From contig JAPOTF010000161.1 of the NCBI GenBank assembly GCA_026709325.1, positions 1 through 64,000 of the forward strand: a stretch of 64,000 nt of DNA, in the 5' to 3' direction. The position numbers and the translations under genes were made by a program. This stretch comes from Roseovarius sp. (lineage in GTDB: Bacteria; Pseudomonadota; Alphaproteobacteria; Rhodobacterales; Rhodobacteraceae). A model generated the notes under the pieces. The model was given only the letters and a program-made list of their open reading frames with translations, was not told the DNA's origin and ran no database searches. Within the stretch, counting starts at the first letter, position 1; every line of letters starts with the position of its first letter. This document shows positions 41,359-46,458 of this stretch, one piece after another.

Positions 41359-41360
41359 GA

Positions 41361-41398
41361 AACCATCATAAACCATCATAAACCATCATAAACCATCG
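41361..41398. repeat. Tandem repeat, 10-bp unit, 3.8 copies
   Basis: AACCATCATA is repeated three times without change (41361-41390), followed by a partial copy AACCATCG. With one turn of helix per unit, this phasing would place repeated sites on one DNA face. It has no spacers and is not a CRISPR. Confidence 0.85.
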
Positions 41399-41471: not shown

Positions 41472-41772
41472 GCAGGACACCCTGAGAGCTTGACTCAAAA
41501 TGCCGTATATCGGGCTTCAAGATTCACCATAAGCGGGCAAGACACATTATGTAGTGTGCAGGCAAGGCTTTTAGGTCAAGCTCTGGGATCATCATTGGAG
41601 CCGTGTAGCAAGCGACCCGCCCCCGCAACGATTATCCGAATTCCAGCATGGAATTGTTCCGCTGCACAGAGTGAGCGTTTGTATCCGCGAATATGAAGCT
41701 AATCGGCGCTCAATATGATTTTTTTAAATATGACATATTGACATGTCGCAATTATGCCGCTATATTTGCAAC

Positions 41773-42462
41773 ATGTCTGATAATGAACTCACACTTGAAG
41801 AACTGAGCGAACGAACCGGAGTGGGATCACGCACCTTGCGCTCATGGGTGAGCGAGGGACTGCTTGCTCCGCCCTTCAGGCCAGGGCGCGGAGCCCGATA
41901 TCCGGCCACAAATGCGGACCGCGCACTGGCGGTGCGGGTGCTAATGAGTCTTCACGGGCTTTCGCTGTCGGAAATCCGACACCGCTTCATGATGGTCGCA
42001 GAGGAGCAGATTCGGGATTGGGCCCTGGAAGCGGGACAAACAGTCGCGCCACACGGGACTGCGCGAGACTACCTCAATCGCATAGCCGCCTGCCACATGG
42101 AAGCGGATCCCGCGCACAACTCGGCGAAGATATCAAACCGGAAATCGCTTCGGCATGCGCCGGAAGTTTCAAGTCGTGAACGGACTTCCGGAAATCTGTC
42201 GAGCCAGTCTAGCCAACCGTCCAACGACGAACGGAGATTGGCAAAACTCGCCGGTATCGAGAAGCTCATCCTCCAATTGGAGAAAACATTGGACAATCCG
42301 GCGCCTAGACGCTCAAGGGGCGATATCTGGACTAGAATCTCGGTTACGCCCGATCTTGAAATTTCCATTCGCGGCAATCTTGATTCACGTGAACGGATTC
42401 TCTTCGAACAACTTGGGGATCATTTCCGCGCCATTCTTTCCGGGAGAACAAGCAATGACTGA
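41773..42462 (+). CDS. MerR-like regulator paired with a VWA protein
   Basis: 229 residues from MSDNELTLEELSERTG; an ATG ten codons earlier is in frame but lies before the conserved helix-turn-helix. The N-terminal winged helix reads LEELSERTGVGSRTLRSWVS then RGARYPATNADRALAVRVLM. A charged middle and a C-terminal domain follow (RGDIWTRISVTPDLEISIRG, LFEQLGDHFRAILSG). The C-terminal part looks like a small beta/alpha sensor rather than a metal-binding MerR tail; no cysteine pair is seen. It overlaps the VWA gene by 8 bp and is surely co-translated with it. Confidence 0.8.
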   Translation: MSDNELTLEELSERTGVGSRTLRSWVSEGLLAPPFRPGRGARYPATNADRALAVRVLMSLHGLSLSEIRHRFMMVAEEQIRDWALEAGQTVAPHGTARDYLNRIAACHMEADPAHNSAKISNRKSLRHAPEVSSRERTSGNLSSQSSQPSNDERRLAKLAGIEKLILQLEKTLDNPAPRRSRGDIWTRISVTPDLEISIRGNLDSRERILFEQLGDHFRAILSGRTSND

Positions 42463-43777
42463 AATTCACTTCACCGTAACCGCCGCCTTTGATCGCAGCT
42501 TCTTTTGGAAGCGAGGGAGTTCCGTCCGCTATCTCGTTGCCCGTCTGAATGCCAGAAGCGAGGACAATCCATGCAAAGACGGTCGCGCCCCGCTTAATGT
42601 CGCTCTTGCAATTGATGCCAGCGGCTCGATGGGCGGGGGAAAACTTGCGGCGGCCAAGAGCGCCGCTCTGGGCTTCGCGGAACGCCTGACCGAACGGGAC
42701 CGACTTACGGTGGTTTCTTTCGCTTCGGATGTTCGGGTTCATCTCGACGCAGTGCCGGTTACCGCTGAAAATGCAATGCGGATTCGCGCGGAGATTTCAC
42801 GCCTCCAGACGCGAGACACAACCTTCCTGTCGGGTGGCTGGTTTGCAGGTGTCGACTGCACGGCACGGGTGGCCGAAGAGGATCCAGGGATGTCCCCGCG
42901 CGTAATTATCCTTAGTGATGGACACGCCAACAATGGAATCACCGATGCCGCCGAGCTTGGCGAGCACGCCGAGGAACTTCGGATGCGCGGGGTGCTGACA
43001 TCGGCGCTTGGAATCGGCGACGGATACGACGAGCAGTTGTTGCGGAGCATCGCCGAACATGGAGGCGGGCGTCTTCACGACGCGGAAATGGTCGATGAGA
43101 TTTCCCTGGTACTTCTTGGAGAACTTGACGATATTTTCGAAACCGTTGTTGAAGACGCGCAGATAAAGCTAACAGCGCCAAAAGGCGTCAAGGTCGAAGT
43201 GCTTGGCAAGGGATATGCCAGGGTTGCCAACGGTGGCGCCCTCGTGTTCATTGGACCGGTTCAGAATCGCGTCGAGCAGTTTGCTGTATTCAAGGTTACC
43301 TGTCCCAAGGCCCGGCGAGGCGATGAACTGAAGTTCGAGCTGGCAGTTGACGGGAGTGCCGCCTCCGACCGGCTCATATCGAAATCCGATGCAGCGACCA
43401 TCAGGCTAACCGCCGCCAATGGCACGGCTAACGGATCCCAGCCACGCGACGGGGAAATTGCGGAAATCGCCGCACGCATCTGGAGCGCAGATATCGTCGC
43501 CAATGCCGCACGCATGAATCGCGATCATGCATTTGAGAAAGCAGAAACATACGTCAAGCGTGAATTGCGCTACTTCCGTCGATATGTTGAAGGCTTGGAC
43601 CACGAACGCGAGATGATCCAGGAAATCGAATTGCTCTCGCGGCGGGTGGGGGATCTGTTGTCGTCGCGCATGCACAAGGAAATGACGTTTCAGTCATCAT
43701 TGGAGATTCAAGAGCGTATCGATCACAGAGGATCGGACAAAGTTTCCTGGAGCAGGCGAATGGAGCGTGGTGATTGA
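42455..43777 (+). CDS. Von Willebrand factor A (VWA) domain protein
   Basis: 440 residues from MTEIHFTVTAAFDRS, whose ATG overlaps the MerR stop and has GGGAG upstream; the frame is open 100 codons earlier but there overlaps the regulator out of frame. VWA domain at about 47-220 with a full MIDAS: DASGSMGG (54-58), Thr in RDTTFLSGG (122-123) and Asp in ILSDGHANN (155). A beta-rich domain follows (240-320) and a helical C-terminus rich in charge. No signal peptide, so it is likely cytoplasmic. VWA proteins with MIDAS bind partners through a metal ion. The partner could be the downstream helical protein. Confidence 0.85.
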   Translation: MTEIHFTVTAAFDRSFFWKRGSSVRYLVARLNARSEDNPCKDGRAPLNVALAIDASGSMGGGKLAAAKSAALGFAERLTERDRLTVVSFASDVRVHLDAVPVTAENAMRIRAEISRLQTRDTTFLSGGWFAGVDCTARVAEEDPGMSPRVIILSDGHANNGITDAAELGEHAEELRMRGVLTSALGIGDGYDEQLLRSIAEHGGGRLHDAEMVDEISLVLLGELDDIFETVVEDAQIKLTAPKGVKVEVLGKGYARVANGGALVFIGPVQNRVEQFAVFKVTCPKARRGDELKFELAVDGSAASDRLISKSDAATIRLTAANGTANGSQPRDGEIAEIAARIWSADIVANAARMNRDHAFEKAETYVKRELRYFRRYVEGLDHEREMIQEIELLSRRVGDLLSSRMHKEMTFQSSLEIQERIDHRGSDKVSWSRRMERGD

Positions 43778-44054
43778 TGACCTGAGATTCGCATGGGCGG
43801 ATTGCTCCACGTAACTGGAAGCCGGATACGCTCTCGCAGGTTTCACAGGAACAATAAGCGATGCCGGTTGGCCATGGAAGAACTCTGTGGCCACCACGGA
43901 GCCGATGCCTTGCCAAACACGGTTGTAAAACTCGAAATCAGACGTTTTTTGTCACGTTTATGTGATCAAAATCCTCCTGAGGGCAAGAATCAGGTCGCCA
44001 GTGAATTCGGACAACGCAATGCAAACCAGCAAAACCTGTACAAAGGGAAAAATC

Positions 44055-44486
44055 ATGCCAAAACAACAGAAAGATGAAGTGAAGCCTCCAGTGCCTGCAC
44101 GGGTTGAAGCTCAAATTAGCGCCCAAAAAGCGGAAATTGCCCGCTTGCTGTTCTACGCCAGGTGCGAATTTGAAGCGAAAAGTGCGCAATATTCCAAAAA
44201 CAAACTCCTCGTGAAGTTATTGGCTGAAGAATACCGTTCGATGAATGAACTGATGAAAACGGCAAAACTTGAAGAGGACTCGGCTCCGGAATCGGCAAAC
44301 GACAAATACGGCACGATTAGGAAAACCCTAGGCAATATCATCAGATCCCTGCGGTCATTAGACGAGAAGATGAATAAGGAAACCGGCAAGACGATTTTGC
44401 AGGCACTGCGCAGGATTGAAGAGATGCTGACGGAGATCAACGCAAAACATGATGAATTCTTCAAGCCGAGAAAGCACCTGCACTGA
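44055..44486 (+). CDS. Helical, coiled-coil-like protein of unknown function
   Basis: 143 residues from MPKQQKDEVKPPVPAR, with AAAGGGAAA upstream; the frame is open 31 codons earlier without a better start. The sequence is almost entirely charged helix (AQISAQKAEIARLLFYARCE, LVKLLAEEYRSMNELMKTAK, TIRKTLGNIIRSLRSLDEKM, ILQALRRIEEMLTEINAKHD), with no signal peptide or membrane segment. I recognise no family. It lies 277 bp after the VWA gene on the same strand and may be part of the same functional unit. Confidence 0.6.
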   Translation: MPKQQKDEVKPPVPARVEAQISAQKAEIARLLFYARCEFEAKSAQYSKNKLLVKLLAEEYRSMNELMKTAKLEEDSAPESANDKYGTIRKTLGNIIRSLRSLDEKMNKETGKTILQALRRIEEMLTEINAKHDEFFKPRKHLH

Positions 44487-45382: not shown

Positions 45383-45403
45383 GTGTCTTCAATCAAAAAT
45401 TCA

Positions 45404-45749
45404 CGCGCGGAGGAACTGTAAGCCGGATTCTGTCGTGGACGGTCATTCATCTGGGCCCGCGGTTGCCCGAAGGCTCATGCTGCCAACCCGTGCCGCCAGG
45501 TCAAGACACCCCATGTGCGGCCCCTATTTGGCATTGCTCCCGGTGGGGCTTGCCATGCCGGTCCGGTTGCCCGTCCCGCGGTGGGCTCTTACCCCACCTT
45601 TTCACCCTTGCCCTTCAACGGGGCGGTCCGTTTTCTGTGGCGCTTTCCCTCGGGTTGCCCCGGCCGGGTGTTACCCGGCACCGTTGTCTTGTGGAGTCCG
45701 GACTTTCCTCAAGGTCATGAAAACCCCGCAACCATCCGCTCCTCCGCGC
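45404..45749 (-). ncRNA. rnpB: RNase P RNA (M1 RNA)
   Basis: Minus strand, about 346 nt. The diagnostic P4-flanking sequence GAGGAAAGTCCGGACTCCAC is present near the 5' end (+ about 45690-45712) and its partner AGAATCCGGCTTACAG near the 3' end (+ about 45415-45430). The terminal helix P1 pairs CGCGGAGGA at the 5' end with TCCTCCGCG at the 3' end. It is the catalytic RNA that matures tRNA 5' ends, of bacterial type A. A T-run (ATTTTTGATT) directly after the 3' end may act as terminator. Ends are accurate to a few bases. Confidence 0.95.
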
Positions 45750-45777: not shown

Positions 45778-46458
45778 TCAGTCAACCGGGAACCGTGCGG
45801 CAAGATCGGCCAGCAATTCCATGTCCTCCAGTTCAGCGGGGCCGTGCGCCCAGGGACGAAATCGCAAGCGAAAAGCGGCAAGTATATCCGATTCGCCAAC
45901 ATCCGCCGTATAGCCGAAAGCGCGCGCCAAAGTCATAAAACCGCTTTTGGCATCCCTTCTGACCGGCCAAACCGACAGCCCCCGTCTGGAAAGTCTGAGC
46001 CAATCAAACCGCGGGCCGGGATCGAATTTGCGGGATGGCGCCATGTCGGAATGGGCAATTACCCGCTCGGGAGGCACTTTCCATCGACTCATCAGATACT
46101 CAAGCAGTGTTTCCAGTGACGACATTTGCGGTTCGGGAAATGGGTGAAAGCCCGTGTTTGCGAGTTCTATTCCAAAGGAGAGGGAATTGACGTCTTCGAC
46201 TTCCCCCCACTTTCCCGCTCCGGCATGCCATGCGCGCATTTTCTCATCGACAAGCTGCAGGATTCCACCGTCTTCGCATATCATGTAATGGGCGGACACC
46301 TCGGCCGCGGAATCGCAAAGTCTATTCAAGGCGGATTCGGCATCTTCCATGCCGGTGTAATGCAACACAATCAAATCGGGAATTGCGCCGCGTCTTCGGG
46401 GGCCAAAATTGGGTGACGGATGGAATATCGCATCGCGCGGAATTGCCGAAAATGTCAT
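45778..46458 (-). CDS. N-acetylmuramoyl-L-alanine amidase (AmiD/AmpD-like, amidase_2)
   Basis: 226 residues. Amidase_2 fold: LIVLHYTGMEDAESAL (zinc His), SAHYMICEDGGILQLVDE, AWHAGAG, SFGIELANTGFHPFPEPQ, VIAHSDMAPSRKFDPGPRFDW (second His and Asp). No signal peptide, so it is the cytoplasmic AmpD role, cutting anhydro-muropeptides in recycling, working with NagZ. A C-terminal extension of about 60 residues resembles a small peptidoglycan-binding helical domain (AFGYTADVGESDILAAFRLRFRP). Six bp from the lipoprotein gene upstream. Confidence 0.9.
   Translation of the reverse strand: MTFSAIPRDAIFHPSPNFGPRRRGAIPDLIVLHYTGMEDAESALNRLCDSAAEVSAHYMICEDGGILQLVDEKMRAWHAGAGKWGEVEDVNSLSFGIELANTGFHPFPEPQMSSLETLLEYLMSRWKVPPERVIAHSDMAPSRKFDPGPRFDWLRLSRRGLSVWPVRRDAKSGFMTLARAFGYTADVGESDILAAFRLRFRPWAHGPAELEDMELLADLAARFPVD

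Follow-up and report, generated by a model that had tools for sequence, protein, structure and literature searches.

A MerR-type regulator and an ArnB-like VWA protein form a recurrent, probably self-regulated gene pair in bacteria

The window analyzed here, a 64,000-nucleotide stretch of Roseovarius sp. DNA (contig JAPOTF010000161.1), contains a gene for a MerR-type regulator (merR) directly followed by a gene for a VWA protein (vwa; Table 1), and these two genes represent a real, widespread regulator-partner cassette. When 84,980 genomes were scanned with a three-sequence VWA alignment as the query, 27 loci with substantial VWA relatives and two marginal VWA matches were recovered, and a MerR relative was located directly upstream of the VWA gene in 24 of the 27. 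Annotated plasmids from two further phyla, the Deinococcota and the cyanobacteria, added the pair in Deinococcus, Meiothermus, Picosynechococcus, Synechocystis, and Cyanobacterium. Among the Rhodobacteraceae, the pair was rare, being detected in 5 of 394 genera, with MerR present in all five. Judged by the best matches of the pair, the host is probably an alphaproteobacterium of Rhodobacteraceae type. Most of 32 MerR-VWA pairs had a gene overlap of 4 or 8 nt; the Roseovarius genes share 8 nt, ATGACTGA, as had been noted from the sequence. The distances of the MerR and VWA proteins were correlated (r = 0.84; 0 of 2000 permutations), which would be expected of co-inherited neighbors. A sequence-only reading of this DNA had proposed a three-gene system and a neighborhood check of the VWA homologues; in that check MerR recurred with VWA across phyla and on plasmids, and the third gene never recurred. 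The same reading named the system as a candidate undescribed one, and no description of the pair was found in the open-access full texts that could be searched, subscription papers being outside that coverage.

Three loci (L047, L048, and L049, from Planctomycetota and one unclassified proteobacterial MAG) had no MerR, and an XRE-type HTH protein overlapped or abutted the VWA start in its place. The resemblance of the XRE tails to the MerR C-terminal domain was suggestive (6.8 bits, 1 of 300 shuffles; −0.2 bits, 16 of 300 shuffles). A viral origin of the pair was rejected because scans of viral contigs yielded distant VWA matches only. On one such contig, from a viral collection (L136, 875-2412), the gene immediately preceding a VWA gene encodes a MerR-like protein in which the C-terminal domain was recognized (14.5 bits, 0 of 300 shuffles). 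A Haematobacter plasmid (L022) and Paracoccus shanxieyensis (L033) have identical MerR proteins and neighboring helicase genes in common. Downstream of its VWA gene the Haematobacter plasmid carries recombinase and Tn3 genes, and the C-terminal tail of this VWA protein diverges from its relatives past residue 405. Plasmid pSYSA of Synechocystis PCC 6803 also carries a member (MerR, SGL_RS00905; VWA-macro, SGL_RS00910).

Table 1. Positions of the MerR-VWA pair, its control region, and neighboring genes in the window
Feature	Position	Strand	Comment
Candidate MerR operator	41730..41749	+	ATGACATATTGACATGTCGC; imperfect palindrome overlapping the −35; conserved upstream of merR, Rhodobacteraceae to Acetobacterales
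Promoter	41738..41766	+	TTGACA-17-TATATT; consensus scan, 11/12 matches; −10 ends 6 nt before merR ATG
merR-type regulator gene	41773..42462	+	229 aa; HTH residues 7-74, confident in model; MerR_1 3.3e-13
MerR C-terminal domain	42328..42438	+	Residues 186-222; beta-hairpin and helix; kept across phyla; candidate VWA-docking domain
vwa gene	42455..43777	+	440 aa; PF00092 1.5e-15; model pLDDT 92; 8s05 Z 31.2
VWA domain	42587..43141	+	Residues 45-229; intact MIDAS D54, S56, S58, T123, D155
Helical ORF	44055-44486	+	143 aa, charged; starts 277 nt past VWA stop; G+C 0.47, lower
RNase P RNA (rnpB)	45403-45747	−	298.5 bits; downstream neighbor
AmpD-type amidase gene	45778-46458	−	RNase P RNA directly follows

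A conserved promoter-operator element, GACATATTGACATGTCGC, was located upstream of merR from the Rhodobacteraceae to the Acetobacterales. In cyanobacteria and Deinococcota TTGACA was kept and the flanks differed, some of them being palindromic (for example, TTGACAATCCAGATTGTCA). A perfect TTGACA was present 34 to 36 nt before an in-frame merR start at 33 of 39 loci, compared to 5 of 662 control ORFs, which were taken from random regions and submitted to the same test; at 26 of the 33 loci the spacing holds from the annotated or longest-ORF start. This conserved geometry implies a merR-vwa mRNA that is predicted to be leaderless, and it points to an operon that probably regulates itself and does not reach its neighbors through copies of the operator. 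The 17-nt spacer and the palindrome over the −35 box would fit a repressor. A tandem run of AAACCATCAT units is also present upstream of the merR promoter, at 41360-41397.

With a weight matrix built from 18 operator sites, every match of at least 10.2 bits in 477 kb of loci was at a merR promoter, and shuffled sequence gave none above 11. No operator copies were found before neighboring defense genes in the 477 kb, and therefore any control of those genes would be by read-through. The operator in Table 1 is the sole near-perfect copy in the host genome, in which a scan returned one site with no more than one mismatch, a lone two-mismatch site inside an ABC-transporter gene, and three-mismatch sites in the number that, by an estimate based on pattern length and genome size, chance alone would give. 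On these counts, and with no second operator in the 477 kb of loci, a regulon extending beyond the pair was rejected.

The regulator has the winged HTH of the MerR superfamily (Pfam MerR_1, 50 bits versus a cut-off of 21.6). Its only cysteine is at position 107, and metal-sensor equivalog models scored far under their cut-offs, in agreement with its initial description as a MerR without metal-binding cysteines. Membership in PADLOC mad1 was rejected, as the match (31 bits) was confined to the HTH, and Pfam gave no WYL or Nudix match. In the predicted model a good HTH is joined by a disordered linker to a C terminus made up of a beta-hairpin and a helix; the model is weak outside the HTH (pLDDT 76; pTM 0.44), and the whole model gave weak MerR-type matches only in a fold search. 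In 23 sequences the C-terminal domain shows no variation at P193, D194, E196, D216, R219, and L222, and its profile matched MerR at nearly all loci, though weakly in some Deinococcus and Cyanobacterium plasmids.

The VWA protein is predicted to have N-terminal strands and a beta-sandwich around the VWA domain, followed by a C-terminal helical bundle, a layout resembling that of ArnB. The best solved match of the model was ArnB in the ArnA-ArnB complex (8s05; Z 31.2; rmsd 4.1; 374 residues), and further matches were an ArnB paralog (5a8j; Z 28.4), a Catenulispora VWA protein (4fx5; Z 28.1), and inter-alpha-inhibitor H1 (Z 25.9). All five MIDAS residues are present and are invariant in 26 sequences, which bears out the early description of the site as intact. 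The protein has no strongly hydrophobic stretch, and the cytoplasmic location originally assigned to it is therefore reasonable. Two overlapping genes, self-regulation, and plasmid carriage would suit a toxin-antitoxin pair, with MerR as an autoregulating antitoxin and VWA as the toxin, but this seems very improbable, as neither Pfam nor fold comparison revealed a catalytic toxin domain in the VWA protein.

No MoxR gene was found near the pair in the window, as had been observed from the sequence, and the sole strong AAA_3 match in the genome is on another contig. VWA proteins often act with MoxR (PMC7159879), and together with the MoxR gene on the other contig this would accommodate a MoxR-VWA chaperone pair whose MoxR gene has been displaced in this genome. 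The neighborhoods disfavor such a displacement, which the sequence-only reading had named as the finding that would count against its proposal: the constant partner is MerR, and among the surveyed loci a single one had MoxR next to MerR, in company with a VWA-like protein of another kind. We consider a displaced MoxR gene extremely improbable. The locus concerned, on an Allomeiothermus silvanus plasmid (L094, 6001-10383), encodes a MerR of the same family, then a HEAT-repeat protein, the other VWA-like protein, and MoxR, giving the impression of an exchanged VWA partner.

The charged helical protein encoded after the pair is the product of an orphan gene outside the MerR-VWA system. The ORF looks coding (codon score, 0.139 versus −0.39 and −0.29 in the other forward frames) and has no Pfam family above the cut-off, all weak matches being below it; to this extent its first description stands. 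It had also been counted as part of the set, and here the description fails. Searches of 394 Rhodobacteraceae genera, plasmids, phages, and viral contigs gave no convincing homologue, and a three-gene operon was rejected because the protein is absent from all 27 VWA loci. Nor were the mobile-DNA relics and pseudogene once suggested for the flanks recovered: the small flanking ORFs had no Pfam match, and the downstream neighbor is the RNase P RNA. The amidase-rnpB order is kept in many alphaproteobacteria and the far side of rnpB varies, an arrangement that raised the idea of an insertion hotspot; no attachment repeats or integrase were found.

Although no defense gene was identified in the immediate window, relatives of the pair often have Druantia-, DISARM-, Mza-, and Zac-type proteins, McrBC, and GmrSD as neighbors. 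PADLOC models detected a type IIG enzyme and a DruE3-like helicase (L022), a DpdF-like helicase (L023), DrmD (720 bits; L025), a Mko-like protein (L030), MzaC and MzaE (L031), and ZacB and ZacC (L039), and the pooled PADLOC scan also gave ZacA and AbiEi. Pfam models added McrBC (L030, L032, L038, and L042), GmrSD in Picosynechococcus, and PD-(D/E)XK nucleases on two Deinococcus plasmids. The same scan was applied to control neighborhoods, which extended up to four genes in each direction from randomly chosen points in Rhodobacteraceae genomes. At 1e-30, the 136 control proteins matched 2 families, and the 108 pair-neighbor proteins matched 63 (overlapping) families. Counted by locus, 7 of 15 had defense neighbors versus at most 2 of 17 controls (P = 0.035, one-sided), a small comparison in which the controls represent one family and the cases several. 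The seventh locus rests on the AbiEi match, which was assigned to L042 by inference from the DUF6088 protein of that locus, and for this reason and because of the single-family controls the enrichment of the pair near defense genes is suggestive rather than firm.

The earlier placement of the pair among accessory stress or conflict modules suits the family, going by these neighbors, but not the immediate window. L034, L035, L044, and L046 had no evident defense neighbor. The pair could be an ordinary stress regulator on mobile DNA that is close to defense genes by sharing islands with them, as its isolation in the window, the housekeeping or metabolic genes around L044 and the Deinococcus sp. 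D7000 loci, and an enrichment of no more than P = 0.035 in a one-sided test would allow. We consider this unlikely, since McrBC, nuclease-helicase pairs, and ADP-ribose hydrolases are tightly coupled downstream of the pair in unrelated lineages. An immune role for the MerR-VWA family appears likely.

Enzymes that act on ADP-ribose are a further class of neighbor. An inositol-monophosphatase/ADP-ribosylglycohydrolase fusion follows the VWA gene in L038, where the overlap is 4 nt, and in L039; the gene after vwa encodes a microbial PARG in Deinococcus ficus and a DSP-type phosphatase in Deinococcus deserti; and the VWA protein of Synechocystis PCC 6803 carries a fused macro domain. Iyer et al. 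(PMC9503650) described predicted operons for ADP-ribose deconjugation that combine vWA chaperones with regulators of the Nudix or WYL type, and the MerR-VWA pair overlaps that network. These chaperones, the three different ADP-ribose hydrolases that follow or are fused to VWA in relatives, and the limitation of the operator to the pair's own promoter would all be consistent with VWA being the working part of a stand-alone defense or repair module, in which it captures altered (for example, ADP-ribosylated) proteins like a chaperone and MerR sets its level without binding it. This is possible but rather doubtful: the C-terminal domain of MerR, and not just its HTH, has been retained with VWA across phyla, and most loci, including the window, have no ADP-ribose hydrolase.

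Our preferred reading, put forward tentatively and at somewhat under an even chance, is that merR and vwa constitute a self-contained sensor cassette under its own control, in which a MerR autorepressor works with an ArnB-like VWA partner that docks on it and binds a ligand at the MIDAS. MerR would bind the palindrome over the −35 of its own leaderless promoter and keep the operon low. The co-translated VWA protein would dock on MerR at the conserved C-terminal domain with its beta-hairpin and helix, and could use its own intact MIDAS to hold a protein or peptide ligand, most plausibly a host or phage protein altered in infection or stress, and in some lineages an ADP-ribosylated one. On meeting this ligand VWA would change its hold on MerR, and the operon would be induced, raising the levels of VWA and, presumably by read-through, of co-transcribed genes, which in relatives may encode nucleases, McrBC, or ADP-ribose hydrolases. 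In the window the pair would be induced alone or, perhaps, along with the orphan gene that follows. In the best-supported form of this proposal, MerR would be an autorepressor that its ArnB-like VWA partner reads out, and the output would come through VWA itself and its co-transcribed neighbors. Co-repression by HspR and DnaK was considered as an analogy, for which a literature search gave no match.

A more far-reaching possibility, which we regard as speculative and on balance doubtful, is that these loci represent an undescribed class of immune sensor-regulators in which a MerR (or XRE) repressor is read out by an ArnB/Sec23-like VWA protein whose MIDAS recognizes proteins altered by infection, ADP-ribosylated in some lineages. 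Its members would share a leaderless, self-regulated promoter from Alphaproteobacteria to Cyanobacteriota and Deinococcota and stand beside many different defense effectors. Much about how infection turns on defense islands is still open, and only single-protein regulators of them have been described to date; the sensing of altered proteins would be suggested by a widespread pair in which a likely repressor is joined to a metal-dependent subunit that binds proteins. The conserved operator is a ready reporter, and the pSYSA member makes the idea testable in Synechocystis PCC 6803.

Several known systems share features with the pair. The MoxR-vWA ternary conflict systems (PMC7159879) also place a vWA protein in conflict-related loci, but the MerR-VWA loci have neither an adjacent MoxR ATPase nor a third conserved component. 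The ADP-ribosylglycohydrolase-centered systems (PMC9503650) likewise combine a repressor with a vWA protein, and ADP-ribose hydrolases and phosphatases accompany the pair in some loci. However, their regulators are of the Nudix or WYL type whereas the regulator here is MerR-type, and most MerR-VWA loci have no hydrolase, the ADP-ribosylglycohydrolase of L038 and L039 having no counterpart in the window operon. BrxR/WYL regulators (PMC9122601) and RptR (PMC12255303) are repressors with palindromic or repeated operators found among diverse defense systems, as the MerR described here may be. Those are one-component regulators, whereas this MerR, which has no WYL domain, is always accompanied by a second protein with a MIDAS, and no operators turned up at the operons neighboring the pair.

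The closest structural parallel is the ArnA-ArnB complex, a gene-repression module that controls motility in the archaeon Sulfolobus (PMC6509490, PMC12852372; PDB 8s05, 5a8j). ArnB combines a VWA domain with a beta-sandwich and a helical domain at the C terminus, and the last two are where the ArnA zinc finger binds (PMC6509490, PMC12852372). In its predicted model the Roseovarius protein likewise unites VWA, beta-sandwich, and helical bundle in one chain with an intact MIDAS, and in both cases a VWA protein would act with a partner in repressing genes. In contrast to ArnA, a zinc-finger/FHA protein with no known direct DNA binding, the partner encoded here is a MerR-type DNA-binding protein, and control in the MerR-VWA pair looks autoregulatory.
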